This document shows, piece by piece, positions 1-30,358 of a stretch of DNA of 30,358 nucleotides (position 1 is the first letter of the stretch; each line of letters starts with the position of its first letter). Made by a program: the position numbers and the translations under genes. Source of the DNA: a virus. The notes under the pieces are model-generated. The model did not search any database, was not told the DNA's origin, and was given only the letters and a program-made list of their open reading frames with translations. The stretch spans positions 1-30,358 of the IMG/VR virus record IMGVR_UViG_3300025674_000237, one strand, 5' to 3'.

Positions 1-9
1 CAAGTGGGG
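1..9. repeat. Terminal 9-bp direct repeat (circular junction)
   Basis: Bases 1-9 (CAAGTGGGG) are identical to bases 30350-30358. Collapsing the two copies joins the helicase gene in frame and gives the KWGNRAD stretch expected in this family. Keeping both copies would also stay in frame, because 9 is a multiple of 3, but would duplicate a K-W-G triplet. The overlap most likely marks the ends of a circular or circularly permuted genome and is not a biological terminal repeat. Confidence 0.85.
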
Positions 10-244
10 TAACCGTGCTGACGATTGCTATTGTGTTCATCGAATGACAAACCACCCGAATGAATGGATGTATTCAGAATTACACGTACTAAAAATAAAA
101 GAAACCGAGACGGGCGGTAGATGCACACCTTTTGAACAACCTATAAGATTAAGAATGTCAAGAAACAATGTAGGGTTTGAGTTTTTAGGAAAAGACATAT
201 TGCATAGTAAAAGAAGTGAAGTAAACGAAATATTAAAGTTTTGA
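1..244 (+). CDS. DnaB-type replicative helicase, C-terminal part (continues from 29676)
   Basis: This is the 3' end of the gene that starts at 29676. From position 10 it continues the frame broken at the window end. The joined product is 305 aa. This part carries the NRADD segment followed by a conserved-looking strand (CYCVHR), which in DnaB/gp4-type RecA-fold helicases corresponds to the last core motifs near the arginine finger. It then has a C-terminal tail rich in basic residues and ends at TGA 242-244. An internal ATG at 44 opens the same frame and would be misread as a 66-aa gene if the circular junction were ignored. See the entry at 29676 for motifs. Confidence 0.88.
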   Translation, partial: KWGNRADDCYCVHRMTNHPNEWMYSELHVLKIKETETGGRCTPFEQPIRLRMSRNNVGFEFLGKDILHSKRSEVNEILKF

Positions 245-249
245 TATAT

Positions 250-474
250 ATGGTACAAATAATAATAGTGTTTTTAATTATAGCTACTTCTATGATTTAT
301 ATTGGTCAGTTAAATAACGCTGAAATAATGGTAGCACCAATATTGGGAGTTGTCTTAGGTGCGCTATATTCCAAGCAAGCATACGAAGAAGAAGAATCGG
401 TAGAGCATACTTTACAATGCTGTATATTTTTTATAAGCCTGACAGTAATATGGGAGACAACCTCGAATGGTTAA
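250..474 (+). CDS. Small membrane protein, unknown function
   Basis: This 74-aa product starts at ATG 250. A TTG at 241 in the same frame overlaps the helicase stop but is the weaker choice. It has an N-terminal hydrophobic segment (about residues 3-20), a second apolar stretch (about 28-43), an acidic patch (EEEES) and a third hydrophobic stretch near the C-terminus. It therefore probably sits in the host inner membrane. It lies between the helicase and the sigma-like gene and overlaps the latter by about 25 bases, so it belongs to the early operon. I do not recognise the family. Candidate roles such as host takeover or superinfection exclusion are guesses. Confidence 0.6.
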   Translation: MVQIIIVFLIIATSMIYIGQLNNAEIMVAPILGVVLGALYSKQAYEEEESVEHTLQCCIFFISLTVIWETTSNG

Positions 475-998
475 GAATTGTTGCCAAGCAGCACGATGAA
501 TGGGTTAAGATTGTAAACAGTTTTGGCGAATATAACTATGCTGAAGACATTGTGCAAGAGGGGTATTTAGCTTTAATTAAATATGCAAAGCCTGAAAACA
601 TCATTAAAGATAACAAGATGACTAGGGGTTATATGTATTTTACATTGCGTTCTATTTATTATCAGTATTATAACAAGAAAAGAAAAGTAAAAAAGATTAG
701 CATAGACAATGAAGATATAAACATTCAACTTCCTTATGTCGATGATATAGACGAACAGGAAGCGTTTCATAAGATTTGTACTATGGTAGATGACATAGCG
801 GATGGTTGGAATTGGTATGACCGTAAGTTGTGGAAGTTGTACTCACAAACAGATATGAGCATTAGAAAACTAGCAAAGGAAACTAAAATAAGTTGGGTAA
901 GTATATTCAATACATTAAAGAATTTAAAAGAAGAACTTAGATTTAAACTAGGCGAAGATTTTGAAGATTATATAAATAACGATTACGATAAATTATGA
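450..998 (+). CDS. Sigma-70-like / RNA polymerase sigma factor-like protein
   Basis: This 182-aa protein (ATG 450; an upstream ATG at 417 adds 11 residues that overlap the previous gene) looks like a small sigma factor. Residues 30-46 (YAEDIVQEGYLALIKYA) match the sigma region 2.1-2.2 helix that binds the RNA polymerase clamp. Residues 59-79 form a second region-2-like helix rich in aromatic and basic residues (RGYMYFTLRS), where -10 recognition occurs in sigma factors. A C-terminal helix-turn-helix at about 136-161 (SIRKLAKETKISWVSIFNTL) resembles region 4. The linker is short, as in ECF-type factors. It probably directs host RNA polymerase to phage promoters. The repeated TATTGTA element before late genes is a natural target candidate. 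The N-terminal pattern (EWLRIVAKQHDEWVKIV) is one I recall from flavobacterial phages, which favours the 450 start. Confidence 0.7.
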   Translation: MGDNLEWLRIVAKQHDEWVKIVNSFGEYNYAEDIVQEGYLALIKYAKPENIIKDNKMTRGYMYFTLRSIYYQYYNKKRKVKKISIDNEDINIQLPYVDDIDEQEAFHKICTMVDDIADGWNWYDRKLWKLYSQTDMSIRKLAKETKISWVSIFNTLKNLKEELRFKLGEDFEDYINNDYDKL

Positions 999-1405
999 AA
1001 GAACCAAAAGACAAAAGGACAAAGGCTTGGAAAGAGTGGAAGAAAAACTTTAATAAACAAAGCAAAGGTGTTGGTGATACGATTGAAAAAATTACTGAAG
1101 CAACAGGAATTAAGAAAGCAGTTAAGTTTATAGCAGGGGATGATTGCGGATGTGATGATAGAAAGAAAATATTAAATCACATATTCCCGTATCAAAAACC
1201 AAACTGCTTAACGGAAGACGAATTTAATTATTTAGGTGAAAAAATAGGTAAGATTAACACCGTTACAGTTGAAGAACAAAAACACTTGTTGAACATCTAT
1301 AATAGGGTTTTTAACGATAAAAGAGAATTGACTTCTTGTGGTAGTTGTTTCCTTAATGGTGTTTGGAAAAAGTTAGAACGAGTTTATAAAGAGTATCTTG
1401 AGTAG
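995..1405 (+). CDS. Conserved cysteine-bearing early protein, unknown function
   Basis: This 136-aa protein overlaps the sigma-like gene by 4 bases (ATGA). It has a Lys-rich N-terminus, then a GDTIEKITEATGIKKAVKFI segment, a CGCDDRKK motif near residues 52-59 and a second cysteine pair near the C-terminus (SCGSC). The two Cys pairs could bind one metal ion. I recall similar proteins (GDT.EK.T.ATGI..., CGCD.R, TSCGSC) in phages and prophages of flavobacteria without an assigned function. Its place directly after the sigma-like gene, in an overlapping operon, makes a role in transcription or DNA handling plausible but unproven. Confidence 0.75.
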   Translation: MKEPKDKRTKAWKEWKKNFNKQSKGVGDTIEKITEATGIKKAVKFIAGDDCGCDDRKKILNHIFPYQKPNCLTEDEFNYLGEKIGKINTVTVEEQKHLLNIYNRVFNDKRELTSCGSCFLNGVWKKLERVYKEYLE

Positions 1406-1796
1406 TTTAATAAGAAATAGAAACCAAGTAAAGCAAGTGATTGACTTTACAGGAGTGCAGAATGGCAAACTGCACCCAAGCGATATTGACTTTGTATTAG
1501 AGTTTGATAATGAGATACTGATACTAGGCGAGGTAAAAAGGAAGTACAACAAGATACCAACAGGGCAAAGATTAATATTGGAAAGGATATGCGATGCTTG
1601 GGGGGAAAAGTCAATAGCGATTAAGGTGGAGCATCAATTTGATGATGATTCTAAAAACATTCCATTAGAAGAATGCAAGGTAACAGCTTGGTATGAACCA
1701 CAAGTAGGATGGCACTTTTTAAAAGACCCTTTTGATTTTATAGAATTTATTAATAACTTGGGCAAGAAGTGGAATAACAAAAAATGTAGATTCTAA
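1398..1796 (+). CDS. PD-(D/E)XK-type nuclease-like protein
   Basis: This is a 132-aa product with the pattern of a minimal PD-(D/E)XK fold. Residues 29-31 (DID) are followed by a beta strand (FVLEF) and then E45-V-K47 in ILGEVKRK, which gives the D...ExK catalytic triad used by small endonucleases and Holliday-junction-resolvase-like enzymes. The start is unusual. No ATG lies before the catalytic core, and the frame opens with TTG at 1398, overlapping the preceding stop; GTG at 1438 is the alternative. It ends in an overlap with the next gene (TAATG). The likely role is branch resolution or host DNA cleavage during replication. The fold assignment is by motif only. Confidence 0.6.
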   Translation: MSSLIRNRNQVKQVIDFTGVQNGKLHPSDIDFVLEFDNEILILGEVKRKYNKIPTGQRLILERICDAWGEKSIAIKVEHQFDDDSKNIPLEECKVTAWYEPQVGWHFLKDPFDFIEFINNLGKKWNNKKCRF

Positions 1797-2128
1797 TGAC
1801 ACCTAAAGAAGCAATGCACAACAAGTTTGACAACCTAGACGATTTAAACCTGACAAATAATTTATTGATTTTGCAGGAGGCAATAAAGAATTGGTGCGAA
1901 CTTAAACCACAAAACAAAGAACTTCAAGAGGCAAGAGATGCAATAGTAAAGGTATCAATGCTTACAAACAAGTTACAACTAGATAGAGGAAACTACCATA
2001 TTGCACTTAGTCAATATAGAAGTGATTCGACTCGTTCAATAGTTAGAGCGAGGAAAGCGGAAGAAAGAATAGAAGAACTAGAGCAAGAATTAAAAGTATT
2101 TAAAAAAGCAAAAGAGTTAGGATTATGA
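1796..2128 (+). CDS. Coiled-coil early protein, unknown function
   Basis: This 110-aa protein starts in a TAATG overlap with the nuclease gene. Helical throughout by composition, it has an N-terminal Leu-rich stretch and a strongly charged C-terminal heptad region from about residue 75 (ARKAEERIEELEQELKVF) that should form a coiled coil. This suggests a small oligomer. I recall similar phage proteins with a QYRSDS.R..RARKAEE segment, but none with a known function. Confidence 0.65.
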   Translation: MTPKEAMHNKFDNLDDLNLTNNLLILQEAIKNWCELKPQNKELQEARDAIVKVSMLTNKLQLDRGNYHIALSQYRSDSTRSIVRARKAEERIEELEQELKVFKKAKELGL

Positions 2129-2211
2129 TACAAAAATTAATAGTAGGCTATATATTATTTAGAACCATTGAGTTCTTTATAGTATGGGCTTGGAAAATGT
2201 TTATCAAATGA
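2125..2211 (+). CDS. Tiny membrane peptide (28 aa)
   Basis: This 28-codon ORF opens at ATG 2125 in an ATGA overlap with the previous stop and closes in an ATGA overlap with the alternative start of the next gene at 2208. The peptide is almost entirely hydrophobic and aromatic (YILFRTIEFFIVWAW), enough for one membrane helix. The exact overlap at both ends is the main evidence that it is translated. Function is unknown. Confidence 0.45.
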   Translation: MIQKLIVGYILFRTIEFFIVWAWKMFIK

Positions 2212-2456
2212 GTGATAGCGTAACAAAGTTTTTTGAGATGGGAGGTTATATAACTAACCACACAAATGAACGTAAAACAGATAAAATAGTAGATGACGTT
2301 ATAAAGCGTTTTAAAGACCGTAGCACCATTGGAATAGAAAAGTATGGTACAACCCTTTATGATTCTCCTGATGGCTTCTATGGGTTTTTAAATCACCTAC
2401 AAGAAGAACTTATGGATGCTACTCTTTACATTGAGAAACTTAAACAACAAAAATGA
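2208..2456 (+). CDS. MazG-like all-alpha protein, possible nucleotide pyrophosphohydrolase
   Basis: Starting at ATG 2208 gives 82 aa and an ATGA coupling with the tiny ORF before it. ATG 2184 in the same frame would give 90 aa. The segment VIKRFKDRSTIGIEKYGTTL, followed by a C-terminal helix QEELMDATLYIEKL, resembles phage MazG-like or dUTPase-like all-alpha pyrophosphohydrolases, where an EExxD motif binds Mg2+. Only one of the two usual motif halves is clear, so the enzymatic role is uncertain. It might trim the nucleotide pool. Many relatives I recall are simply called hypothetical. Confidence 0.55.
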   Translation: MSDSVTKFFEMGGYITNHTNERKTDKIVDDVIKRFKDRSTIGIEKYGTTLYDSPDGFYGFLNHLQEELMDATLYIEKLKQQK

Positions 2457-2563
2457 AAGAAAGTACATTAATAGAATTACGCAATAGAGTAATGACGATG
2501 GAAAAGGTTTTAATGGCTGTTATCCTTAGACTAGAAAAGTTGGAGGAAAAAGAAAGTGAATAA
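2453..2563 (+). CDS. Short coiled-coil peptide (36 aa)
   Basis: ATG 2453 overlaps the previous TGA. The 36-aa product is one amphipathic helix with hydrophobic heptads (LRNRVMTMEKVLMAVILRLE) and a Glu/Lys-rich end. It looks like a small oligomerising or partner-binding peptide. About 58 non-coding bases follow, the first real break in the early gene run. Confidence 0.45.
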   Translation: MKESTLIELRNRVMTMEKVLMAVILRLEKLEEKESE

Positions 2564-2607
2564 TTTATTTATATCTAAAAAGTTCATTTACTTTACATTA
2601 TAATAAT

Positions 2608-2623
2608 AAAACAAACAATTATG
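2608..2623 (+). promoter_or_regulatory. A-rich translation leader (repeat copy 1)
   Basis: The 16 bases AAAACAAACAATTATG, including the start codon at 2621, are identical to 6000-6015, before another small gene. Close variants occur at 6238-6252 and 6383-6397. Bacteroidota genes generally lack Shine-Dalgarno sites and favour A-rich upstream sequence, so this is probably a reused ribosome-binding leader. The bases just before it (2573-2605) are AT-rich and could hold a promoter, but no clear TAnnTTTG is present. Confidence 0.5.
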
Positions 2624-2782
2624 CAATATCAAGAAAGCGATTGGATAAAACAAGAGTACGGTTCTATGACTAGGGAACGTTTAATGTTTACCATTCAAAA
2701 CAGACATCATTACCTTTTTGCACACGCTGAAAGATGTTTAAAAGAATTAAAACTTAGAAGGAATGATAATACTATTAAATAA
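2621..2782 (+). CDS. Small protein, unknown function (53 aa)
   Basis: ATG 2621 follows the A-rich leader shared with the gene at 6013. The 53-aa product is charged and aromatic with His pairs (QNRHHYLFAHAERCLKELK) and a basic end. No membrane segment or signal peptide is visible. It is the first gene after the 2564-2620 gap, so it may open a second early transcript that includes the exonuclease. Not recognised. Confidence 0.5.
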   Translation: MQYQESDWIKQEYGSMTRERLMFTIQNRHHYLFAHAERCLKELKLRRNDNTIK

Positions 2783-2816
2783 TGAAACGTGGGGTAGGGA
2801 AGAAATCCTTATACAA

Positions 2817-3530
2817 ATGTACGATGATAACTTTTACTACGGACACTTAGGACAACACGCATTAAGTAGTAGTAGCCTAAAGATGATACTTAAAAGCCCT
2901 AAGACATATCGTAATGTTACAAAGTATGGAGACCCTAACGCAGATAGTCCTGCATTATCAGCAGGTAAGTTAGCACATTGGATGGTACTTGAACCACACA
3001 AGATTGACGAACTACACTTTGTGGAAGCATCAACAAAGAACACAAAAATATATAAGGAAGCAAAGTCTAAGTATGGGGAGGTGTTTCTAAACAAAGAACT
3101 AAAGGCAGCAGAAAGAATATCAGATGCTGTGCTAAGAAACGAAGCAGCAATAAAGTTGCTAAACAAATCAGAGTTTGAAGTACCTGCAATAGAAATGATG
3201 GAGGGATTACCATTCAGGGGTAAAGCTGATATAATACAAGGAGATACTATTATTGACCTTAAAACATCTGCCGACCTATCATCTTTCAAGTGGAGTGCCG
3301 ATAAGTATGGTTACGATTTACAAGCGTATATGTACAAGAGAATGTTCAAGGCTGATGACTTTAAGTTCTTGGTGATTGACAAGGGAAGTTGTGATATAGG
3401 GATATTTGAAACGTCTGATGAATTTATAGCAAGAGGCGAAGATAAATTCTATAGAGCAGTAGACAACTACAAGTACTTTTTTCAAGGCGATACAGACCTT
3501 GACCAATATGTAATGCGTGGAATATTATAA
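2817..3530 (+). CDS. RecE/RecB-type PD-(D/E)XK exonuclease
   Basis: This protein of 237 aa (ATG 2817; ATG 2763 in frame would overlap the previous gene by 20 bases) resembles phage exonucleases of the RecE/PDDEXK_1 kind. Numbered from 2763, an N-terminal LSSSSLKMILKSP segment at 34-46 matches the helix that opens this family. G153-K-A-D156 is followed by D165-L-K167 (TIIDLKTS), the metal-binding D...DxK core. YDLQAYMY at 184-191 is the RecB-type QxxxY motif. It should resect double-stranded ends to give 3' single strands. The ERF annealing protein at 28598 is the expected partner, so the phage has a two-component single-strand annealing system even though the two genes lie about 4.5 kb apart across the junction. 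Confidence 0.82.
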   Translation: MYDDNFYYGHLGQHALSSSSLKMILKSPKTYRNVTKYGDPNADSPALSAGKLAHWMVLEPHKIDELHFVEASTKNTKIYKEAKSKYGEVFLNKELKAAERISDAVLRNEAAIKLLNKSEFEVPAIEMMEGLPFRGKADIIQGDTIIDLKTSADLSSFKWSADKYGYDLQAYMYKRMFKADDFKFLVIDKGSCDIGIFETSDEFIARGEDKFYRAVDNYKYFFQGDTDLDQYVMRGIL

Positions 3531-3538
3531 AACACAAG

Positions 3539-3766
3539 ATGGCGAGGAAGGGTAAAATGTCATCTATAAGGAGAAAGAGCAACAAGTTATTTAACTACTA
3601 TGAAAGAGATGGTAGCATTAAATTAAACAAGCTAAATAAGAAAGATAGAAAGAAGTATATATTAGCAAAACAAAAAGGTATAAAGCTATTGCAAGAAAAG
3701 CAGCGTTTGCCTAAGATTAGAAAGAAAATCAATGGAGAATGGGTAACTTTAGAGAGAGGTGAATAA
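3539..3766 (+). CDS. Small highly basic protein, possible nucleic-acid binder
   Basis: This 75-aa protein is very rich in Lys and Arg across its length (for example MARKGKMSSIRRKSNK and KLNKKDRKKY). It has almost no acidic residues until the last few, and one Trp near the C-terminus. Composition points to DNA or RNA binding. It starts 8 bases after the exonuclease stop, in the same operon, and overlaps the next gene by 8 bases. I do not recognise the family. Confidence 0.6.
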   Translation: MARKGKMSSIRRKSNKLFNYYERDGSIKLNKLNKKDRKKYILAKQKGIKLLQEKQRLPKIRKKINGEWVTLERGE

Positions 3767-3959
3767 AGACATAATACAAGAATTTTATTACCTTACCTTA
3801 CTAGATATAAGAGAAGGAGTTTCAATACAAGAACTAGAAGACATAATACAACTTTACGAAGATGTAGAAGACTATGAGGCTTGTGCAGGAATACTAAAAG
3901 CAATAAACGAAACAAGATACGATACAATAATAAATTTAAAACAAAATGATACTGAATAA
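3759..3959 (+). CDS. Small acidic helical protein, unknown function
   Basis: A 66-aa ORF opens with GTG at 3759, overlapping the end of the basic protein gene by 8 bases. It is acidic and helical (SIQELEDIIQLYEDVEDYEA), the opposite charge of its neighbour, so the pair could form a complex. It overlaps the next gene by 14 bases. No known family is recognised. The non-ATG start is the least certain part. Confidence 0.5.
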   Translation: MNKDIIQEFYYLTLLDIREGVSIQELEDIIQLYEDVEDYEACAGILKAINETRYDTIINLKQNDTE

Positions 3960-4401
3960 CATCTGCGAAATGGTTAGCAATGAATTAAAAGTTAATCTAC
4001 GTGAAAGAACAAGAAAACAAAGAAACGTATTTGCAAGAGCAATATATTATAGACTAGCTAGAGAGTTTACACCTTACTCACTTAACAAAATAGCAAATGA
4101 ACTAGACTACGACCACGCAACAGCAATACACGGTATAAGAATGTTTGATTCTTTTAAGATGCAACCTAAACTTTATGTTCACGAATTAGCAGCATACGAA
4201 AACATATCTAAAATACTTCAAACAGTTAAGATAGAGAAAAACGAAACACACTTAGAGAAAATCCTTAGAGAAAGAACCGAACTAATAATAGACAGACAAA
4301 AACACATAGAGAAATACCAAGCACTAAAAGAAAAGTACAATAGAATGTTAAAGTACTATTCAAGATTTGAAAAAAACGCATTAGAGAAATATGGAATATA
4401 G
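3946..4401 (+). CDS. DnaA domain IV-like DNA-binding protein with coiled coil
   Basis: This is a 151-aa product. Residues about 20-68 (RTRKQRNVFARAIYYRLARE, then YSLNKIANELDYDHATAIHG) match the C-terminal helix-turn-helix domain of bacterial DnaA: an R-x-x-x-Y-x-x-R helix, then a helix-turn-helix ending in the DHATAIHG signature (DHSTVLHA in host DnaA). The AAA+ ATPase domain is absent. Instead a long charged helix follows (about 95-150) that should form a coiled coil. It might bind DnaA-box-like sites to mark the phage origin, recruit the phage helicase, or compete with host DnaA. It is the last sizeable gene of the replication block before terminase. Confidence 0.75.
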   Translation: MILNNICEMVSNELKVNLRERTRKQRNVFARAIYYRLAREFTPYSLNKIANELDYDHATAIHGIRMFDSFKMQPKLYVHELAAYENISKILQTVKIEKNETHLEKILRERTELIIDRQKHIEKYQALKEKYNRMLKYYSRFEKNALEKYGI

Positions 4402-4471
4402 TATAATGTTATTTGTAATGATGGGGTTTGGTTTCTTAGCTATGGCTATATATGAATACTTTAATGATTAA
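4391..4471 (+). CDS. Tiny membrane peptide (26 aa)
   Basis: ATG 4391 overlaps the end of the DnaA-like gene by 11 bases. The 26-aa product is a single hydrophobic helix rich in Met and Phe (MLFVMMGFGFLAMAIYEYF) with a short polar end. It is like the 28-aa peptide at 2125. Translation is inferred from the overlap and the clean membrane profile only. Confidence 0.4.
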   Translation: MEYSIMLFVMMGFGFLAMAIYEYFND

Positions 4472-4486
4472 CAAAACAATTAATTT

Positions 4487-4495
4487 TTTATTGTA
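4487..4495 (+). promoter_or_regulatory. TTTATTGTA element upstream of terminase (relaxed copy)
   Basis: TTTATTGTA at 4487-4495 matches the core found before other late genes, and an AACAAAACAATTAA stretch lies just upstream. Here the start codon (4522) is 26 bases downstream instead of 5-6. It could be a promoter with a short leader for the packaging genes. It is the weakest member of the set because of this spacing. Confidence 0.35.
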
Positions 4496-4521
4496 TTATT
4501 GAATAATCAAGTTATATCAAG

Positions 4522-4752: not shown

Positions 4753-4782
4753 GGATAACCTAGACCCTATTCTGCAATATAT

Positions 4783-5952
4783 ATGCAGATTAAAAAAACA
4801 CAAGCACTTACCAAACTTAGAAACCTCAACAATAGAGTTAAGATTGTACGAGGTGGAACATCGGCAGGAAAGACTATTTGCATCTTGCTTATTCTTATTG
4901 ATTATGCTATTAGAAACGATGGTAAAGAAATATCCGTAGTAAGTGAAAGCATCCCACACTTGCGTAGAGGTGCTTATAAGGACTTCTTAAACATCTTAAA
5001 GGGTCTTAATAGGTATAAGGATAGCCAACTAAATAAAAGCACCTTAAAATACACCTTTACTAATGGTAGCTATATTGAGTTCTTTAGTACAGACCAACCC
5101 GATAAACTAAGAGGTGCAAGAAGAACAGACTTATATATCAATGAGTGTAATAACGTACCCTTTGATGCTTACCAACAATTAGTAGTAAGAACAAGTGGAA
5201 ACATTTGGTTAGACTATAACCCTGCTGCATTATTTTGGGTTGATAAGGAATTAGTAGGAAAAGATGATACCGACTTCATAACACTAACATATAAGGATAA
5301 CGATTCATTACCTGATACAATCATAAACGAAATAGAGAAGGCAAAGGTAAAAGCAAAGACTTCTACCTATTGGGCGAATTGGTGGAGGGTGTATGGACTT
5401 GGAGAAATAGGAAGTTTAGAAGGTGTGTGTATACCTGATTGGAAAGGGATAGACACAATACCCGATGAGGCACGTTTACTTGGATATGGTATGGACTTTG
5501 GTTATTCCGTTGACCCTACAACATTAATAGCAATATACAAGTGGAATAACGCATATATAGCGGATGAGGTGCTTTGTAAGAAAGGAATGCTTAATAGAGA
5601 TATAAGTAGGTTCTTACAGTCAAATAACATAAGGGAAAACATCACAGCAGATTCAGCAGAACCGAAATCTATATCAGAGTTGCAAGGATATGGACACAAT
5701 GTGTTTCCTTGTTCTAAGGGCAGGGATTCGGTAGTATATGGAATCAACCTAATAAACCAAAACGAAATATACGTTACAAGTAGAAGCAAGAACTTGAAAC
5801 GTGAACTACAAGGATATATATGGGCAAAGGACAAAGAGGGTAACACCTTACAGAAACCAACGGGAGAACACCCCGATTGCATTGATGCGATGAGGTATGC
5901 ACTAACAGACCAATTAGAGAATCCAAATAAAGGGAATTATTTTATCTATTAA
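4783..5952 (+). CDS. terL: Terminase large subunit (packaging ATPase and nuclease)
   Basis: This 389-aa enzyme has both motor and nuclease parts. Walker A is GGTSAGKT at residues 24-31 and Walker B is DLYINE at 116-121. The RNase-H-like nuclease has acidic residues at D238 (GYGMDFGYSVDPT), D290 (ITADSAEP) and in HPDCIDAMRY (D365/D368). It is of the PBSX/SPP1-like type and slightly short for the family (400-450 aa). It cuts concatemers and pumps DNA through the portal. Unusually, the portal gene lies more than 14 kb downstream instead of next door. The start is ATG 4783, preceded by an AT-rich ATATAT stretch. Confidence 0.95.
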   Translation: MQIKKTQALTKLRNLNNRVKIVRGGTSAGKTICILLILIDYAIRNDGKEISVVSESIPHLRRGAYKDFLNILKGLNRYKDSQLNKSTLKYTFTNGSYIEFFSTDQPDKLRGARRTDLYINECNNVPFDAYQQLVVRTSGNIWLDYNPAALFWVDKELVGKDDTDFITLTYKDNDSLPDTIINEIEKAKVKAKTSTYWANWWRVYGLGEIGSLEGVCIPDWKGIDTIPDEARLLGYGMDFGYSVDPTTLIAIYKWNNAYIADEVLCKKGMLNRDISRFLQSNNIRENITADSAEPKSISELQGYGHNVFPCSKGRDSVVYGINLINQNEIYVTSRSKNLKRELQGYIWAKDKEGNTLQKPTGEHPDCIDAMRYALTDQLENPNKGNYFIY

Positions 5953-5957
5953 TTTTT

Positions 5958-5984
5958 TTTGTTAATAAAAAGTTTATATATTTG
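5958..5984 (+). promoter_or_regulatory. Candidate Bacteroidota-type promoter before the small-gene cluster
   Basis: TATATTTG at 5977-5984 is an exact match to the TAnnTTTG -7 element of Bacteroidota promoters. A TTTG at 5958-5961 could serve as -33, but the 15-base spacing is shorter than the usual 17-23. The gene at 6013 starts 28 bases downstream behind the A-rich leader. Confidence 0.5.
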
Positions 5985-6012
5985 AAGTGTATAACAATTA
6001 AAACAAACAATT

Positions 6013-6207: not shown

Positions 6208-6214
6208 AATAAAC

Positions 6215-6237: not shown

Positions 6238-6249
6238 AAAACAAACAAT

Positions 6250-15062: not shown

Positions 15063-16070
15063 ATGGACATTATAGAACTTTTTATAGATGAAAACGATGA
15101 TGTTTCGGGAATTGAAGCGGTATCTATCGTAGAGAACCCTGCAATTGAAGAAGACTTCGTAGCATTAAAAAACCAAGAGTTTAAGTTTGCAGAAGTGAAC
15201 AAAGAGAAGCGTATCCTGATGGGTGCTGCTCTTATTCCCAACAAACCTATTTACAGAAGAAACGAAGATAACGAATATTACATATATTTTTCAAGAGATA
15301 CAGTACGCAAAGCAAGTGAATTGTTTTTTATTCGTGGCAACCACAATAAATCAACCTTAGAACACCAAATGCCCTTAGAGGGATTAGTAGCAGTTGAATC
15401 TTGGATTGTAGAAGATAAAGACAAAGACAAGTCTAAGTTTTATGGTATGGATATGCCATTAGGTACTTGGATGTTGTCGATGAAAGTTCTTAACGATGAT
15501 GTTTGGGAAAACTATGTTAAAACAGGAAAAGTAAAAGGATTTAGCATTGAGGGTTACTTTGCTGATAAGTTAGAAAGACCAAACGAACCTAACAACCTTT
15601 CAGCTTGGGAACAAGAGGAGGAAGATTTCTTAGTAGAAGAACTTAAAATGATACTATCAGGAGAAGAACTAGAATCTTATACAGACTATCCTGATGCGGT
15701 AAGCAACAATGCAAAAAGAGGAATAGAATTAAACGAAAAAGTAAATAACAAATGCGCAACACAAGTAGGAAAAGTCCGTGCGAAACAACTTGCACAAAAG
15801 AAACCTGTAACTGTGGAAACTATCAAGAGAATGTTCAGCTACCTAAGTAGGGCGCAAGAATATTACGATGAAGGAAACAATGAAGCCTGTGGTACTATTT
15901 CTTACTTATTGTGGGGTGGTAAAGCAGGACTAAGATGGGCAGGAAGTAAGTTAAAAGAATTAGACTTGTTAGAAGCTGATTTAAAGAAGCCTTGCCAAGC
16001 AGGATATGAGATGATAGGGTTTAAAATGAAAAACGGTAGACGTGTACCTAATTGCGTACCTATAAAATGA
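15063..16070 (+). CDS. Prohead protease, XkdF-like, with extra C-terminal domain
   Basis: This 335-aa protein has three parts. Residues 1-170 match XkdF/prohead serine protease-like proteins: SIVENPAIEEDF near the N-terminus, H94/H101 in NHNKSTLEHQ, and S161 in KGFSIEGYF as the likely nucleophile. Residues about 207-298 are a separate helical domain (YPDAVSNNAKRGIELNE, then CATQVGKVRAKQLAQK and WGGKAGLRWAGSKL) that I recall in Bacteroidota phage proteins without a known role. The last 24 residues (CQAGYEMIGFK, NGRRVPNCVPIK) form a small Cys-containing tail. It should mature scaffold and capsid. It is far from the portal, unlike the portal-protease order in HK97. Confidence 0.75.
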   Translation: MDIIELFIDENDDVSGIEAVSIVENPAIEEDFVALKNQEFKFAEVNKEKRILMGAALIPNKPIYRRNEDNEYYIYFSRDTVRKASELFFIRGNHNKSTLEHQMPLEGLVAVESWIVEDKDKDKSKFYGMDMPLGTWMLSMKVLNDDVWENYVKTGKVKGFSIEGYFADKLERPNEPNNLSAWEQEEEDFLVEELKMILSGEELESYTDYPDAVSNNAKRGIELNEKVNNKCATQVGKVRAKQLAQKKPVTVETIKRMFSYLSRAQEYYDEGNNEACGTISYLLWGGKAGLRWAGSKLKELDLLEADLKKPCQAGYEMIGFKMKNGRRVPNCVPIK

Positions 16071-19907: not shown

Positions 19908-20249
19908 ATGATTGTTTTACAAAATTCAGATAGCGACCAAACATTTAGTTTTATACCACGTTCTTACGAAGACGGTACAACTTACGCAATCAAAATAAAA
20001 AACGAAACTACAAACAAATTAGTTTACGACAGTACATCAACTAGCTTTACTTTAGTTGACTACTATTACCAACATACAGACACTTTTACGCTTATAGAGG
20101 ACACTACATATACCTTAGAAATTAAAGCAGGAAGTGAACTTATATTTAGAGATAAAATATTCTGCACAAATCAAGCAGTAAGTTCTTATAGCATAAACAA
20201 TAGTGCTTATACAGAACATAGTCAAGACAATGAATTTATAGTATTATAA
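19908..20249 (+). CDS. Small beta-rich structural protein before the portal
   Basis: A 113-aa protein with strand-rich sequence (DQTFSFIPRSYEDGTTYAIK, TYTLEIKAGSELIFRDKIFC) resembling an Ig-like fold. It starts after a TATTGTA element and its stop overlaps the portal start. Position suggests a head component such as a decoration or connector protein. I recall similar short proteins upstream of the portal in flavobacterial phages, without a defined function. Confidence 0.55.
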   Translation: MIVLQNSDSDQTFSFIPRSYEDGTTYAIKIKNETTNKLVYDSTSTSFTLVDYYYQHTDTFTLIEDTTYTLEIKAGSELIFRDKIFCTNQAVSSYSINNSAYTEHSQDNEFIVL

Positions 20250-22027
20250 TGGCAAGAAACAACAAAATAAAAGCAAACGTTGATAGCATTCACGTTGTTA
20301 ATTTATCTTCTTACAACAAACCACAAGTTAAAGAGGATAAAAAAAAGGATTGGGTTGCTTACGGTAGTGATAACAACTATTATGGGTATTTAATTAACTT
20401 ATATACTAATTCTACAACTAACAACGCTATTATTAACGGTGTTAGCAATATGATTTATGGAAAAGGACTAGATGCCTTAGATAGTAGTACTAAAACAAAC
20501 GAGTATGCTGCTTTACGTTCTATATTCCACAATGATTGTTTAAAAAAGGTATCTTTAGATTTAAAACTATTAGGAGAGGCTTCCTTTCAAGTATTATATA
20601 AAGATTCTAAAGTAGTAAGAGCGGAACACTTTCCACGCCAAACTTTACGTGCTGAAAAATGCAATGATGACGGGGAGATTGAGGCGTACTATTATTTCCA
20701 CGATTGGTCTAAAATAAAATCTAACGACAAACCGCAAAGGATTTCAGCATTTGGGTACGGTAATGGTAAAGAACCTGAAATAAAAATCATAAAGAAATAT
20801 GTTTCAGGATATGATTACTATTGCCCTGTGGATTATCAAGGTGGTTTGGCTTATGCTGAATTGGAATCGGAAGTAGCAGACTACTTAATTAACGATGTAC
20901 AAAACGGATTTAGCGGAACTAAAGTAGTCAACTTTAACAACGGTGTACCTGATAGAGAAAAGCAATTAAGCATTAAGAACGATGTAATGCAAAAGCTAAC
21001 GGGTTCAAGAGGGGAAAAAGTAATTATTGCTTTCAACAACAATGCAGAAAGTAAAACAACTGTTGATGACATACCTTTAAATGATGCACCTGCACATTAC
21101 GAATATTTGTCTAGTGAGTGTGCAACTAAATTAATGGTAGCACATAGGGTTACATCACCTTTACTTTTAGGAATTAGAGACGGTAATAATGGTTTAGGTA
21201 ATAACGCTGATGAAATTAAAACTGCTTCTTTGTTGTTTAACAATATTACAATTAAACCTTATCAGGATTTAATAATTGAATCAATAGAGCAAATATTAGC
21301 AGTAAATCAAATTAGTTTAAAACTGTATTTTAAGACTCTACAACCGCTTGAATTTATCGAAACGACTAATGCCATTACAGACGAGGCTAGAGAGGAAGAA
21401 ACAGGCGTTAAATTAGCTAAGGAGGAATCCTTTGATGATGATAAGATGTTTGATTTACTAGATGAATTTGGAGAGGAAGAAGATTTAGACGAATGGGTGT
21501 TAGTTGATGAAAGAGAAGTAGACTATGACCAAGAAGAAGCATTAGATAAAATGATAGGTTTAGCGAGTACAGAAACAGCAAGACCGAGTACAGGAACAGC
21601 AAGACCGAATGCAGGGAGTGAACAAGATGGCGAAGCTGATGGACTTAAATTTAAAGTAAGATACCAATACGCGCCATTAAGAGTTTCTGCAAACAGTAGA
21701 GAGTTTTGTAAAAAAATGGTAGCTGCTAAAAAAATATACCGCAAAGAAGATATAATGCAAATGAGTGAAAGAGCGGTAAATGCAGGTTGGGGATTAAATG
21801 GTGCTGATACTTATGATATATGGTTATATAAAGGTGGTGGAGGTTGTCATCATTTTTGGATGCGTAAGACGTATATGGCAAAAGGTGTAAAACCCGATGC
21901 GACTAACCCAAAATCAGAAATATCTGTAAACAAGGCAAAAAAAGAAGGGTTTAAACCTGAAGTAAATGATAAGAAAGTGGCAATGCGACCAAAGGATATG
22001 CCGAATCAAGGATTTGTAAATAAGTAA
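20249..22027 (+). CDS. Portal protein with fused MuF-like C-terminal domain
   Basis: This is a 592-aa protein. Residues 1-370 fit a phage portal: an opening KKDWVAYGSDNNYYGYLINL, a NNAIINGVSNMIYGKGLDAL segment and a GIRDGNNGLGNNADEIKTAS stretch near 307-326. An acidic linker and a low-complexity Thr/Ala/Arg/Pro repeat (TETARPSTGTARPN) follow at about 440-455. Residues 465-592 look like the conserved end of MuF minor head proteins: SREFCKKM (C487), YRKEDI, and GGGGCHHFW (C533, H534-H535). In most phages portal and MuF are separate neighbouring genes; here they appear fused. It forms the dodecameric DNA gate. Portal identity is firm, and the MuF label is by motif. Confidence 0.85.
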   Translation: MARNNKIKANVDSIHVVNLSSYNKPQVKEDKKKDWVAYGSDNNYYGYLINLYTNSTTNNAIINGVSNMIYGKGLDALDSSTKTNEYAALRSIFHNDCLKKVSLDLKLLGEASFQVLYKDSKVVRAEHFPRQTLRAEKCNDDGEIEAYYYFHDWSKIKSNDKPQRISAFGYGNGKEPEIKIIKKYVSGYDYYCPVDYQGGLAYAELESEVADYLINDVQNGFSGTKVVNFNNGVPDREKQLSIKNDVMQKLTGSRGEKVIIAFNNNAESKTTVDDIPLNDAPAHYEYLSSECATKLMVAHRVTSPLLLGIRDGNNGLGNNADEIKTASLLFNNITIKPYQDLIIESIEQILAVNQISLKLYFKTLQPLEFIETTNAITDEAREEETGVKLAKEESFDDDKMFDLLDEFGEEEDLDEWVLVDEREVDYDQEEALDKMIGLASTETARPSTGTARPNAGSEQDGEADGLKFKVRYQYAPLRVSANSREFCKKMVAAKKIYRKEDIMQMSERAVNAGWGLNGADTYDIWLYKGGGGCHHFWMRKTYMAKGVKPDATNPKSEISVNKAKKEGFKPEVNDKKVAMRPKDMPNQGFVNK

Positions 22028-23916: not shown

Positions 23917-26058
23917 ATGCCATTCAACGACAGATTAATGGATACTGAAGAAGCTGCCGCAGTTAATGGTGGTGGTAGAGAAGATGCAGAACAAAATTTA
24001 GTATTACATTTAGATGCCAATGATGTAGACTCTTATGACGGTGATGGAGATGTTTGGTACGATATATCAGAACACGATGTAACGATACCTTTATCTGATA
24101 ATGCCGATGATTTAGAACTACACCTTAACGCTAGTGATTCTACTTCTTATGGTGGGAGCGGAACTACTTGGACGGACATTAGTGGTAATAGTAACGATGG
24201 AACTATAAGTGGAGCAACATTTGGCGCAGACAATGGTGGTTACTTTGATTTTGATAGTAATGATTACATATCCGTTCCGTCCACATCATCAACGCCTGTT
24301 GACTTTTCAGCTAAAAACTACACAATAGAGGCTTGGATAAATCCTGACACCACCGCTCTCTCAAACCCAATTCTAACTAAGTATGGTACTACCGACTCAC
24401 TTAGAAGCATTCATTTTAGTTATATTAGTAGCGGAAAAATTCGTTTATTTGAAAGAGCGACAGGAACAAACGCTTCTCACGAATCAACTAGCACATTGAC
24501 GTTGAATAGGTGGACTCACGTTGCCGTAACAAGAACTTCATCACAAGTTAAACTTTACATAGACGGAAGTTTAGATGCTACTATATCTTCTACCTTTACG
24601 CCTAATAATGGAGGAAGCCAAAATATAAATATAGGCTCACAGGCTAACGGTCAATTCAACTTCTTTGACGGTCAAATAGGCGAAGTAAGAGTCTACTCTA
24701 AATCACTTTCAGCATCAGAAGTAGGACAAAACTACCGACACGGAAGAGGTTATATTTATACTGATTTAATAGATGATACTGATTTAGAGTTACATTTAGA
24801 CCCTACCTCATATAGCGGAAGTGGCACTACTTGGACTGCCGATGTGGGAAGTGATGCTACAATTAACGGTGCTGATTATGACCAAGAATTAGGCGATTGG
24901 TTTGATTTCAATGGTTCTAGTAATGATGTTCGTTTAAATAGTGGTAATACTATACCTGCGGCAACTTTTGATAATTGCACTTTTGAATATTGGATTAGAT
25001 TAGATGATTTGTCAGAATCTAGGCACTTATATTTACACGATTTTACTTCAAATAATGCTAATTTTATAGGTATATCAAAATCAAATACTAATAATAAACT
25101 TATGGTGTTTGGTAGTGCTCCGCACATAACAATATCAAGAGGAAACACAGATTTAGTTACCAATAAATGGACACATATTGCGGTGTCATTAACATCTTCT
25201 CAAATTAAAATGTATATCAATGGCAAACTAGATGCTATCGTAAGTCAAAGTTTTAGTGGTTTTTCTAGTCCTCTTTATGGGACTATTGGCAATGACCGAC
25301 GAGGAAGTTCTACCGCAGGACCTAAATGGTTAAACGGACAGGTAGGGCAATTTCGGATTTATTCAACAGCCCTAACCCAAGACCAAGTAATACAAAATTA
25401 TAACTTTACTAAGCCTAGCTATCCTAATGGGAATAACGCAACTAATAACGGTGCTACTTTTAGTCCTTCAACAACACCTAATTATTGGAGTTTTGATGGT
25501 AGTAATGATTCGATGTTATTATCTACAACTAATACTTTATTGGGAGATACAAATAACATAAAAACCATTAGTGGGTTTATTACTTTATCTTCAACTACTG
25601 CAAGAGGATTTATTTATAGTGTTTCTGCTAGTAATAACATAAACGATTATTTCTACATAGGCTGGTTAGGAGACCAAAACAAAGTTTACGTTACATCAAG
25701 AGATGGCAGTTCTTCCAATTCATTTACACACACTGCCCCTTTGACGGGCGTTGCTAATACTTGGAAGCACATTTGTGTAACAGGTGGTGACGGAAATACA
25801 CCTAAGATTTATGTTAATGGAGTAGAACTAACGGTAACGTCATCTTTATCGGGTAGCGCAACTTCTGCAAGTTGGATAGATTACCCTTCGTATTCAGGAA
25901 CTATTTATACTTATGTAGCTAAGTTAAGACAGTACCTTCCTGCCTCGACTCATTGGCATAACGGTAGAATAGGACAAGTTAAATTATATGATAACACCTT
26001 AACAAGCACAGAAGTCTTAGCACTTTTCAACGCGGAAAAAGATACATACGGATTGTAA
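23917..26058 (+). CDS. LamG/concanavalin-like repeat protein, probable receptor-binding
   Basis: A 713-aa protein made of LamG/concanavalin-A-like jelly rolls, at about 65-275, 289-497 and 500-713. Each has a YxIEAWI- or FEYWIRL-type strand, an RWTHVAVTRTSSQVKLYIDG- or KWTHIAVSLTSSQIKMYING-type strand and an IGEVRVYSKSLSASEV-type ending. An extra copy of the header (NLVLHLDANDVDSYDGDG, about 27-44) precedes the first full domain without a fold behind it. These domains bind glycans, often Ca2+-dependent, and fit a distal fibre or adhesin for host polysaccharide. A Thr/Ser/Asn-rich surface fits exposure. No catalytic residues for sugar cleavage are apparent. Confidence 0.75.
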   Translation: MPFNDRLMDTEEAAAVNGGGREDAEQNLVLHLDANDVDSYDGDGDVWYDISEHDVTIPLSDNADDLELHLNASDSTSYGGSGTTWTDISGNSNDGTISGATFGADNGGYFDFDSNDYISVPSTSSTPVDFSAKNYTIEAWINPDTTALSNPILTKYGTTDSLRSIHFSYISSGKIRLFERATGTNASHESTSTLTLNRWTHVAVTRTSSQVKLYIDGSLDATISSTFTPNNGGSQNINIGSQANGQFNFFDGQIGEVRVYSKSLSASEVGQNYRHGRGYIYTDLIDDTDLELHLDPTSYSGSGTTWTADVGSDATINGADYDQELGDWFDFNGSSNDVRLNSGNTIPAATFDNCTFEYWIRLDDLSESRHLYLHDFTSNNANFIGISKSNTNNKLMVFGSAPHITISRGNTDLVTNKWTHIAVSLTSSQIKMYINGKLDAIVSQSFSGFSSPLYGTIGNDRRGSSTAGPKWLNGQVGQFRIYSTALTQDQVIQNYNFTKPSYPNGNNATNNGATFSPSTTPNYWSFDGSNDSMLLSTTNTLLGDTNNIKTISGFITLSSTTARGFIYSVSASNNINDYFYIGWLGDQNKVYVTSRDGSSSNSFTHTAPLTGVANTWKHICVTGGDGNTPKIYVNGVELTVTSSLSGSATSASWIDYPSYSGTIYTYVAKLRQYLPASTHWHNGRIGQVKLYDNTLTSTEVLALFNAEKDTYGL

Positions 26059-26547: not shown

Positions 26548-26901
26548 ATGTTACACTTTGATATATCAGAATTTGACAGCCCCGATGAAGTTGGTAGTGG
26601 TCGCTATATGCAGTCTTCTACTTTACAGATGCTCGATGATGCACGTTCAATTGCAGGGATTCCATTTAAAATCACTAGTGGCTTCAGAACAAAAAGTCAT
26701 AATGCCTACGTTGGAGGAAAAACAGGTAGCAGCCACTTGTATGGATATGCCGTTGACATTTCCGTTACAAGTTCACACCAAAGAGCCACAGTACTCAATG
26801 CCCTTATTAAGGCAGGATTCCGTAGAATTGGAATTGCTAAAACCTTTATCCACGCAGATAATGACCCTGATAAATCACAAGACGTTTTTTGGGTCTACTA
26901 A
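26548..26901 (+). CDS. Endolysin, peptidase M15-type L,D/D,D-carboxypeptidase
   Basis: This is a 117-aa enzyme of the peptidase M15_3 kind. The segment ITSGFRTKSHNAYVGGKTGS, followed by SHLYGYAVDI, gives the H63-x6-D70 zinc motif, and FIHAD supplies H102 as the third ligand. It should cut peptide cross-links in the host murein at lysis. It has no signal peptide, so a holin must let it out. Its size is typical for single-domain M15 lysins. Neighbours are membrane proteins on both sides. Confidence 0.9.
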   Translation: MLHFDISEFDSPDEVGSGRYMQSSTLQMLDDARSIAGIPFKITSGFRTKSHNAYVGGKTGSSHLYGYAVDISVTSSHQRATVLNALIKAGFRRIGIAKTFIHADNDPDKSQDVFWVY

Positions 26902-27200: not shown

Positions 27201-27318
27201 TTGTAGAGAAGTATATAATAGTATATATTTTATGCTACAACAAGACTTAATAACAAATACAGATGCGCAGTTACTTTGGTTAAAGCACAAAGAAAATGAG
27301 CGAAAAAAAGAAATTTAA
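27124..27318 (+). CDS. Small secreted protein, start nested in another gene; possible lysis accessory
   Basis: A 64-aa product has a signal-peptide-like start (MRILITLICLTTMTVMA, then NPKL) with probable signal peptidase I cleavage after residue 17. No lipobox fits (TLIC lacks a small residue before Cys). The mature part is about 47 aa, charged and helical (SCREVYNSIYFMLQQDLITN). The gene starts inside 27006-27200 in the +2 register and ends inside the holin start. Overlapping secreted proteins next to endolysin and holin recall Rz1-type spanins, but a lipoprotein signal and Pro-rich tail are absent. Confidence 0.55.
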   Translation: MRILITLICLTTMTVMANPKLDESSSCREVYNSIYFMLQQDLITNTDAQLLWLKHKENERKKEI

Positions 27319-27715
27319 AGATACAAAGGTTGGTCAGTTTTTACTTTCTAAGATTCCTTCAGTTGTTGGCAGTATTGCCAATGATACCCCTGTTGGTAAT
27401 GTCGTACGTACCCTTATTGGTGGTAGTGAAATGTCAGATGCTGATAAACAAATTGCACTTAAAAAGCTAGACCAAGAGATACACGAGTTCGATGGTATTA
27501 CAAAAAGATGGGTAGCAGATAGTCAGAGTCAATCTTGGTTAGCAGCAAACGTAAGACCGCTAACTTTAGTTACACTAACTGCTAGCTTTGTAATAGGTTG
27601 GTTTTTACAGATAGATGAACTAGATGTAGTAAAGGAGTTATTAACTATTGTTTTCTTGGGTTACTTTGGTTCAAGAGGTGCGGAAAAGATAATGGGTAAC
27701 AACAAACATAGATGA
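27296..27715 (+). CDS. Holin-like protein (3TM / GTA-type holin family)
   Basis: A 139-aa protein has a polar N-terminal half (KFKDTKVGQFLLSKIPSVVG, then GGSEMSDADKQIAL) and a C-terminal half with two or three membrane helices (NVRPLTLVTLTASFVIGWFL and LLTIVFLGYFGSRGAEKI). The WLAANVRPLTL and GYFGSRGAEK motifs are typical of the 3TM phage holin family (GTA-type). It starts inside the previous gene (23-base overlap). It should open the inner membrane for the endolysin at 26548. Confidence 0.82.
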   Translation: MSEKKKFKDTKVGQFLLSKIPSVVGSIANDTPVGNVVRTLIGGSEMSDADKQIALKKLDQEIHEFDGITKRWVADSQSQSWLAANVRPLTLVTLTASFVIGWFLQIDELDVVKELLTIVFLGYFGSRGAEKIMGNNKHR

Positions 27716-27844: not shown

Positions 27845-28078
27845 ATGAATGATATAAAACAACTTGCAGAAAAAATAGCAAAAGACTTTAATTTAAGCAT
27901 TAAAGAAAGGACAGATGCTTTACTAAAAATGGATTGTGAACAGTATATGATGTTAGGAACAGATACTAATAAAACACAAAAACAAGAAGTAAAAAAAAAT
28001 TCTAAATACATATATAAGCAAATAAAAGGATTTAATGAATCAGATGGCGAGTTACTTTTACGTGCTTTAGATGATTAA
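27845..28078 (+). CDS. Early protein, unknown function (77 aa)
   Basis: A 77-aa helical, charged protein, the first gene of the replication block, lies 34 bases after the candidate promoter. ATATATTTAATATATG precedes the start. It is rich in Lys, Asp and Glu (QLAEKIAKDFNLSIKERTDA) and its end overlaps the NinG-like gene by 8 bases. The position suggests a very early role, possibly regulatory. The family is not recognised with confidence. Confidence 0.6.
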   Translation: MNDIKQLAEKIAKDFNLSIKERTDALLKMDCEQYMMLGTDTNKTQKQEVKKNSKYIYKQIKGFNESDGELLLRALDD

Positions 28079-28487
28079 AAAAAAAACAATGCCTAAAACA
28101 TCAAAGAAACCTACTAGAAGTAAATTAGTTAAAAAACTTGATGTAGTATTTAGTCAGTATATAAGATTAAGCAATGCGGATAGTAGAGGAATGTGTACTT
28201 GTGTTACTTGTGGAAAACAAGGACATTGGAAAACAGGAGGCATACAAGCAGGACACTTTATATCTCGGAAACATTATTCAGTGAGATGGGATGAAAGAAA
28301 TGTAAAACCACAATGCGTAGCTTGTAATGTTTATAGGGCAGGAGAACAATACAAATATAGTTTATATCTTGGTAATAACTTGTCTGATGAATTGTATCAA
28401 AAAAGTAAAAAGATTACTAAATTTACTAATGTAGAATTGCAGGAGATGATAGAGACTTACTCATCTTTACTTAAAAAACTTTCCTAA
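28071..28487 (+). CDS. ninG: NinG-like recombination nuclease
   Basis: A 138-aa protein (ATG 28071; ATG 28089 is the alternative) with the lambda NinG/Rap pattern: zinc-binding C42-x-C44-x-x-C47 (MCTCVTCGK), the GHF-x-SR-x-H segment (QAGHFISRKHYS) with H62, and QCVACNVYR (C82, C85). NinG-type proteins cut branched recombination intermediates in focused recombination. Here it heads a gene run that also carries the ERF annealing protein and SSB, as expected for a recombination module. Confidence 0.85.
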   Translation: MIKKKTMPKTSKKPTRSKLVKKLDVVFSQYIRLSNADSRGMCTCVTCGKQGHWKTGGIQAGHFISRKHYSVRWDERNVKPQCVACNVYRAGEQYKYSLYLGNNLSDELYQKSKKITKFTNVELQEMIETYSSLLKKLS

Positions 28488-28597: not shown

Positions 28598-29116
28598 ATG
28601 AGCAAACAATTATCACTTAATCAAAAGCTGTTTAACTTACAGCAAGAAATTGGGGCAATTAGTAAGGATGCTAATAACCCTTTTTACAAGTCAAAGTATT
28701 TTGACATTAATTCTTTAATTAAACAACTACAACCTTTATTAAAGAAGCACAAGTTACTTTTAACACAACCCGTTTTAGGAGACAGTGTAGAAACAAAGAT
28801 AACTTGTATTGACACCGAACAGTCGGTTATTTCTAATTTACAACTTCCTCAAATATCAGACCCACAAAAACTAGGTTCTTGTATTACTTATTTTAGACGT
28901 TATACATTAGCTTCTTTATTAGGACTACAAGCAGAAGATGATGATGGAAACGCTGCTAGTGGCAGAGTCTCGGAAGTAGAAAAGAAATGGCTAAACGCTA
29001 ACACACCTGAATATTCAAAAGCAATAGAGTATTTACAAGGTGGTGGTTCTATTGAAAGCATAAAGGCTAAATATAAAGTCTCAAAAAAGATTCAAGATGA
29101 ACTTTCAAAACTGTAA
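28598..29116 (+). CDS. erf: ERF-family single-strand annealing protein
   Basis: This 172-aa protein is of the ERF recombinase family: an N-terminal helix and strand (NQKLFNLQQEIGAISKDANN), a KYFDINSLIKQLQPLLKKHK segment (residues 34-52) and the signature LGSCITYFRRYTLASLLGLQ (92-111), followed by an acidic EDDDGN. The C-terminal 50 residues form a small helical domain (EYSKAIEYLQGGGSIESIKA). ERF proteins anneal complementary single strands and circularise or recombine phage ends. Its exonuclease partner is probably the gene at 2817. Confidence 0.92.
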   Translation: MSKQLSLNQKLFNLQQEIGAISKDANNPFYKSKYFDINSLIKQLQPLLKKHKLLLTQPVLGDSVETKITCIDTEQSVISNLQLPQISDPQKLGSCITYFRRYTLASLLGLQAEDDDGNAASGRVSEVEKKWLNANTPEYSKAIEYLQGGGSIESIKAKYKVSKKIQDELSKL

Positions 29117-29520: not shown

Positions 29521-29679
29521 ATGCGACCAAAGGAACTAAAACAAGATGCAGAAATGCCTAGAGATTTTTGGAATTACAAAGTAAATCCTATTATGGGATA
29601 TTATGTAGAACCAATTGTAAGAAACACAAAGAAAGAAAAAATAAAATACGGTTTAGAAACAATAAGAAACAAACAATGA
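29521..29679 (+). CDS. Small basic protein before helicase (52 aa)
   Basis: ATG 29521 follows the terminator T run directly, and the end overlaps the helicase start (ATGA). The 52-aa product is basic with Trp and Tyr (RDFWNYKVNPIMGYYVEPIV). Position next to the helicase may imply a loader or accessory role, but the family is unknown. The near absence of a leader is odd. Confidence 0.5.
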   Translation: MRPKELKQDAEMPRDFWNYKVNPIMGYYVEPIVRNTKKEKIKYGLETIRNKQ

Positions 29680-30358
29680 TTGCACAAGCCAAAAACATTC
29701 AAGAGAAAATATTAGACATAAAGTATGGAAGGGTAAAGGAGGGTTTGAAGATGGACATACCTGAAATAGACGAATACGTGCGATTTAAGCACGGGAACTT
29801 CAATTTACTTATAGGACACGCAAATGTAGGTAAAACAACTGTCTTAACATATTTGTTTACGGTGTGGGCAATAAAACACAATTTAAAGTTCTTGATATGG
29901 TCAAGCGAGAATACAAGCCAAAGTATTGTTAGAAAGATTATAGAATTTAAAATGGGCAAACCAATACACACCGCTTCGGAATCGTTAATTGCAGAAGCGA
30001 TTAAATGGTGTGATGTTTATTTTAAATTAATAGATGTAGAAAATTTAGTTACATATAAAGAGTTATTATCAGAGGCAAACGCCATAAAAGATGCTTGGAA
30101 CTATGATGCCTTAATGATTGACCCTTATAATAGTTTAGCAAAGGACAAACAATTAATGCGTAACTTAGGTGGACACGAATACGACTACCAAATAGCAAGT
30201 GAGTTTAGATTGTTTGCTAAAAAAAGAAATGTTACAGTTTTTCTAAATGCTCACGGTGTAACGGAAGCAATGCGTAGAACATATCCTAAAGGACACGAAT
30301 ATGAAAACCTACCTCAACCTTTGTCTATGTCGCAAGTAGAAGGTGGGGGCAAGTGGGG
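29676..30358 (+). CDS. dnaB: DnaB-type replicative helicase, N-terminal part (continues at 1-244)
   Basis: The first 227 codons of a 305-aa RecA-fold helicase are split by the window end. Walker A is GHANVGKT (47-54) and Walker B is YDALMIDPYN (143-152). A VTVFLNAHGVTE strand is followed by a LSMSQVEGGGKW loop at the break, which fits the DNA-binding L2/H4 region of DnaB-family proteins. There is no N-terminal DnaG-interaction domain and no fused primase. It should unwind DNA at the fork using host polymerase and primase, with help from the DnaA-like and SSB-like proteins. Start is ATG 29676 in an ATGA overlap. Confidence 0.9.
   Translation, partial: MIAQAKNIQEKILDIKYGRVKEGLKMDIPEIDEYVRFKHGNFNLLIGHANVGKTTVLTYLFTVWAIKHNLKFLIWSSENTSQSIVRKIIEFKMGKPIHTASESLIAEAIKWCDVYFKLIDVENLVTYKELLSEANAIKDAWNYDALMIDPYNSLAKDKQLMRNLGGHEYDYQIASEFRLFAKKRNVTVFLNAHGVTEAMRRTYPKGHEYENLPQPLSMSQVEGGGKW
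30350..30358. repeat. Second copy of the 9-bp terminal repeat
   Basis: Identical to bases 1-9 and part of the helicase gene. See the entry at 1-9. Confidence 0.85.

Follow-up and report, generated by a model that had tools for sequence, protein, structure and literature searches.

A virus record with a 9-base terminal repeat is the complete genome of an uncultured tailed phage, most likely opened at an arbitrary place inside its predicted helicase gene

Nonlabens (Persicivirga) phages P12024S and P12024L belong to the genus Inhavirus and have genomes of 35.7 kb; P12024S is a phage of a seawater flavobacterium. Its genome contains a run of genes for a portal, a fibre, an M15 peptidase, an ERF protein, a sigma-70 region 2 protein and a terminase, the sigma-70 region 2 gene lying upstream of that for the terminase. 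Among 43 of the 59 features of P12024S are a primase protein of the VirE type and a helicase that carries PF04851/PF00271. Another isolate, Maribacter phage Panino, is a 77 kb phage with a 1.9-kb gene annotated as a primase/helicase. The hexameric helicases of superfamily SF4 include DnaB, T7 gp4 and SPP1 G40P. SPP1 and Sf6 are headful phages; for SPP1, packaging by the headful mode is described in PMC6316719.

Here we analyzed the whole of IMG/VR virus record IMGVR_UViG_3300025674_000237, a stretch of 30,358 bases that we refer to as the window (gene and repeat coordinates are for the + strand). At 30.3 kb the window is shorter than the P12024 genomes, and its genes resemble those of P12024S in content and order. 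The portal protein (20249..22027; phrog_33693, 3.8e-111) is 36% identical to that of P12024S over 98% of its length, and its gene contains two tandem 21-base copies, 95% alike, at 21564-21605, in a TARPST-like stretch. There follow a virion adhesin or fibre with three laminin-G-like domains (23917..26058; PF13385, three stretches), an M15 peptidase endolysin (26548..26901; PF08291, 56.9 bits), a holin-like protein (27296..27715; phrog_3427, 9.8e-15), a NinG/Rap junction endonuclease (28071..28487; phrog_5034, 7.8e-25) and an ERF single-strand annealing protein (28598..29116; PF04404, 78.3 bits). At the other end of the window are a sigma-factor-like protein (417..998; phrog_1740, 5e-6; no Pfam match), whose gene lies just downstream of the helicase gene in 23 of 23 genome-length relatives, and an exonuclease VIII-like protein with a PDDEXK-like domain (2763..3530; phrog_412, 1.4e-36; PF12684, 79.5 bits). 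An XkdF-like prohead protease is encoded at 15063..16070 (PF14550, 50.4 bits). The product of 3946..4401 has a DnaA C-terminal DNA-binding domain (PF08299, 41.3 bits, cut-off 31.5) and no match to the DnaA ATPase; it is possibly a replication initiator or regulator of the phage. With 3 DnaA boxes, against 5.4 that chance would give, the window shows no enrichment of such sites, and it contains neither tRNAs nor Rfam families. Megablast of positions 1-20000 against a phage collection gave no match, nor was there nucleotide relatedness to Inhavirus over this span, so within that scope no isolate appears close in nucleotide sequence.

The last nine bases of the window (30350..30358) repeat the first nine (1..9) exactly, as the original prediction had claimed, and there is no third copy of this 9-mer. 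When the two ends were compared, no longer or inexact overlap was found, and a terminal inverted repeat extended to 1 base only. We know of no usual assembly k-mer of 9 bases, and trimming, which the original prediction put forward as a possible source of the overlap, is a conjecture. Copy 1 comprises the last base of codon 225, the codons for K226 and W227 and two bases of that for G228. If one copy is removed, the ends join to give a frame of 305 codons, which starts with the ATG at 29676 and stops at 242-244. If both copies are kept the frame is still open and reads KWGKWG; because nine is a multiple of three, the window by itself does not distinguish one KWG from two. The N-terminal part of the gene (29676..30358; residues 1-227, ending two bases into codon 228) matches a PHROG primase/helicase profile at 3.3e-27 and contains the stretches GHANVGKTT and LMIDP, which we take to be Walker A and Walker B. 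The C-terminal part (2..244) runs from K226 to the stop. The joint falls within the stretch EGGGKWGNRADD, presumably motif H4 of DnaB-type helicases. The joined protein scored 126.8 bits (profile positions 344-610), the N-terminal piece alone scored 96.0 bits to phrog_18375 (positions 344-548), and the C-terminal piece alone had no PHROG match. Between a gene at 29171-29488 and the start of the helicase gene there is an intrinsic-terminator-like hairpin followed by seven T (29496-29520).

The joined protein is predicted to be an SF4, DnaB-type helicase. An AlphaFold2 model made from 29 sequences (pLDDT 81.9, pTM 0.84) matches the RecA-like fold of DnaB and T7 gp4: with this model Foldseek recovered T7 gp4D (1e0j, E 5.6e-15), DnaB (4nmn) and the G40P ATPase domain (3bh0), with identities of 14-17%. 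In the 29 sequences G47, G52, K53 and T54 of the P-loop (G-x4-GKT) are invariant. Whereas the fold search was clear, a sequence-level search of the PDB that started from the helicase alignment found nothing with an E of 0.01 or less, and the Pfam DnaB_C score, 23 bits, is under the 27-bit gathering cut-off. Unlike DnaB, T7 gp4 and G40P, the window's helicase is a 305-residue domain that has neither a primase nor an N-terminal domain. Its best isolate match is the Panino primase/helicase (35% identity over 90%), and P12024 is absent from the 13 phage records that match it. Note that when 47 protein queries (the helicase counted whole and as two halves) were compared with PHROGs, none hit a stand-alone primase family; matches with a primase label were to primase/helicase profiles, in which the helicase aligned from position 324 on.

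Among the 337 confirmed relatives of the helicase in IMG/VR, L002 (5,606 bp) and L003 (20,400 bp), two contigs whose metagenome numbers differ, encode a contiguous 305-residue helicase that is 100% identical to the joined protein in both its N-terminal and C-terminal parts. Beside the joint their DNA is 98.6% identical to the end of the window and 97.0% identical to its start. Both contigs align up to base 30358 and again from base 1, and exactly nine bases (3099-3107 in L002, 3190-3198 in L003) are common to the two alignments, from which it follows that nothing is missing at the joint and that the nine bases are present once. L003 extends on both sides of the joint, back to window position 27161 and forward to about 16308, with identities of 90-98.6% and some unaligned stretches; away from the joint its identity drops to 90-95%. 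It is thus a near relative from another strain.

Other relatives give the same picture. They were sampled by taking the best 80 of 337, at least 600, 324, 154, 237 and 186 matches in turn and, in the last sampling, 26 of 26; taking the best 80 means that the sample favours close relatives, and the last two samplings (best 80 of 186; 26 of 26) entered no analysis except the tally of contig ends described below. When loci L002-L213 were searched with the helicase, 150 matched, of which 147 span the joint and three are cut by a contig end; later sampling added L260-L410. All 295 fetched loci that carry both halves of the helicase have exactly 6 bases between the K226 and N229 positions, and none has an insert (intein or intron) at the joint. 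These 295 loci represent 158 distinct sequences round the joint, because many of L260-L410 refetch the same contigs. Six loci with a single half (L184, L212, L277, L292, L324 and L158) are each cut by a contig end. In distant relatives other letters stand in place of KWG (KWA, KIS and KVS, for instance), and the length is constant. The joint is therefore real, and contiguous in relatives, and the question that the original prediction had put forward as a check, namely whether KWG appears once or twice, is answered by the single copy in L002 and L003 and the single length in all 295 loci: in these relatives it appears once. The same contigs and relatives bear out two further claims of that prediction, that joining the ends restores one 305-residue helicase and that the 66-codon reading frame at 44-244 is no separate gene; it is an internal start in the C-terminal part of the helicase gene.

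To set the window beside complete relatives we used 23 genome-length records (27.3-34.8 kb), picked by length from the first three samplings of relatives; genome-length records from later samplings were left out of this set. Each was probed with 46 reading frames of the window, of which the best hit was taken (25-41 found per relative); gene order in 23 of 23 was that of the window, rotated, and the helicase halves were adjacent. (Six shorter records were also inspected, five of which lack the helicase and are fragments of 22.9-26.2 kb.) Self-overlap of the ends was found in 15 of the 23 relatives. It is exact in five, G011 (127 bases), G012 (77), G017 (123), G023 (99) and G030 (127), and reaches to within 2 bases of both ends in a further seven, G010, G019, G022, G024, G026, G027 and G028, in which it amounts to 98 to 2083 bases at 88.7-100% identity and is ungapped save for 2 gap positions in G022. 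Three relatives (G018, G025 and G029) have a looser or displaced overlap, and G004, G006, G009, G013, G014, G016, G020 and G021 have none. The unit genomes of the five relatives with exact overlaps measure 31,891 bp (G011), 29,953 bp (G012), 29,789 bp (G017), 31,898 bp (G023) and 31,162 bp (G030), and since this range, 29,789-31,898 bp, brackets 30,349 bp, the latter is a typical length. The contigs open at different places: in or beside g8626 in G011, between g1796 and g2184 in G017, in g15063 in G030 and in the tail-fibre region in G012 and G023. None of these five opens inside the helicase gene. Together with the contigs that span the joint, the rotated gene order and the end overlaps uphold the proposal that the window makes up a complete genome of about 30,349 bp with a closed map, and we conclude that it is the complete genome of a member of an uncultured group of tailed phages.

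Two of the related records are unusual in their assembly. In G022 (the same as L242/L243; 34,783 bp) the ends overlap over 2,083 alignment columns at 97.1% identity, and the contig seems to pass a full turn into a sister strain. G037 (IMGVR_UViG_3300030202_000332; L495, L502 and L515-L517), of 53,010 bp, consists of two related genomes head to tail and has two helicases. Its bases 1-26765 are 99.99-100% identical to G039 (3300030061_000258) and the remainder is 99.6-100% identical to G040 (3300030061_000207), with the switch point inside a stretch of about 590 bp that is common to both genomes and 93.6% alike. Probably the assembler ran round two circles that share a segment, in which case the length of this record is misleading.

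Why the map closes is suggested by the terminase. The large subunit (4783..5952; PF17288 and PF04466 above cut-off) resembles the large terminases of SPP1 and Sf6, over the nuclease part for SPP1 (nuclease domain 2wbn, 1.5e-12) and over the ATPase part for Sf6 (4ife, which we take to be Sf6 gp2; 9.1e-7); its best isolate matches, among those listed, are Flavobacterium phages, at 51%. Although headful packaging is a property of SPP1 and Sf6 themselves, for the window's phage the mode of packaging is predicted from the terminase sequence; this kinship and the varied contig ends make it likely that this phage, too, packages by the headful mode, and headful packaging of permuted DNA is the likely reason that the map closes. 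The virion DNA would then be linear, terminally redundant and circularly permuted, as molecules made from concatemers by SPP1/Sf6-type headful packaging are. A permuted linear population would yield reads over every position and no fixed end, its assembly graph would have no ends, and the contig would be opened at an arbitrary place, here inside the helicase gene. Our preferred reading, to which we give a probability of roughly 0.88, is that the window is one turn, plus nine redundant bases, of a tailed-phage genome of about 30,349 bp, probably from a phage of Bacteroidetes (Flavobacteriia), that it was cut arbitrarily inside the helicase gene, and that closure most likely stems from headful-packaged permuted DNA.

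A cohesive end could also account for the repeat, and we reasoned that 9-nt 5' overhangs of a cos site, filled in when the library was made, would leave just such a short terminal repeat on a linear genome assembled from end to end. G or C accounts for six of the nine bases, where the genome has about 34% GC, and the contigs of three loci (L158, L277 and L292) start within 20 bases of the joint. These starts differ, however: relative to codon N229 they lie 3 bases before it in L158, 2 bases before it in L292 and 14 bases inside and beyond it in L277, and the window starts 10 bases before it. Moreover, near-identical contigs cross the joint, over 400 bases, for both L277 (L268 and L019, 99%) and L292 (L283, 100%), and L158 (refetched as L487) was itself a sampling query and so is no independent draw. 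Eighty more loci fetched with another query had no contig end within 20 bases, and the apparent cluster was rejected: in the pooled count, which took in 89 left ends within 3 kb of the joint from three different C-terminal queries, 3 of 89 lie within 20 bases, where 1.2 are expected (P = 0.12), which is about chance. On the other side, among 297 loci with the N-terminal half no contig has a right-hand end within 60 bases of the joint, the nearest being 92 bases before it and 208 bases after it. The lack of a clear pile-up speaks against a fixed physical end, and the original prediction, which had held that homologues ending at the window's edge would count against it, stands in this respect also. 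The site in addition lies inside conserved helicase coding sequence, with 4.8 kb between it and the start of the gene for the large terminase, and that terminase is SPP1/Sf6-like; according to PMC5000459, cos sites are often, not always, near terminase genes. We therefore consider a cos site very unlikely. It is harder still to credit that the joint is a species-specific physical end, a 9-nt cohesive terminus within the helicase gene, such that the helicase is made only after the injected DNA circularises and the spanning contigs derive from intracellular concatemers or circles.

The spanning contigs prove contiguity alone, and the form of the virion DNA is a separate matter. A closed map fits a circle too, and would result if the sequenced element was physically circular, for instance a phage-plasmid or a circular replicating form. 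Against this, the window encodes a terminase, a portal, a protease, a fibre, a holin and an endolysin, and the 47 queries against PHROGs, many of whose matches are without known function, gave no match to an integrase, a relaxase or a partition protein. The kinship of the terminase favours linear permuted DNA over physically circular DNA, and we regard the sequencing of a circular element as highly improbable. As for the repeat itself, nine bases are few, and one might suppose that they match by chance and that the window is linear, a fragment of a genome that has further sequence between these ends. At the base composition of the window, however, an exact suffix/prefix match of at least 9 bases has a probability of about 1.6e-5, and L002 and L003 have nothing between the window's two ends, which, short of an insertion precisely at the joint in this strain, leaves next to no room for this explanation. 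Equally negligible is a tandem duplication, in which three codons would truly be present twice and the ends would not be redundant; the doubled form is in frame too, but the relatives with both halves have a single length.

With respect to the host, the kinship with P12024S, the terminase matches and one contig of a metagenome-assembled genome (MAG) indicate that Flavobacteriia are probably the candidate host, and a marine origin is suggested on the same grounds. A scan of contigs of cellular genomes for the helicase yielded two loci only (L513 and L514). L514 (DIAL01000090.1), from the Flavobacteriaceae MAG UBA5079, has a helicase that is 72% identical over the first 135 residues and is cut by the contig end, a weak hint of the host; no terminase was found in the UBA5079 assembly. 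In the assembly of Candidatus Thioglobus AH-541-B16, a helicase (47%) on L513 (JAOMMB010000017.1) and a terminase (58%) on contig 9 (G042) lie on separate contigs. This assembly may contain a related phage that infects a gammaproteobacterium or, alternatively, a virus that came along with the cell or the bin.

The finding is an ordinary one, that of an uncultured tailed-phage lineage with many members in IMG/VR and nothing unusual about it. It means that the record is a complete genome despite an overlap under the minimum of 20 bases that CheckV sets for a terminal repeat, as described in PMC8241571, so that a 9-base overlap would escape recognition as a terminal repeat. Recognizing it avoids the annotation of a spurious 66-residue gene and of a truncated helicase. 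The combination of a short overlap, a restored conserved frame and relatives that span the joint could rescue other complete genomes.
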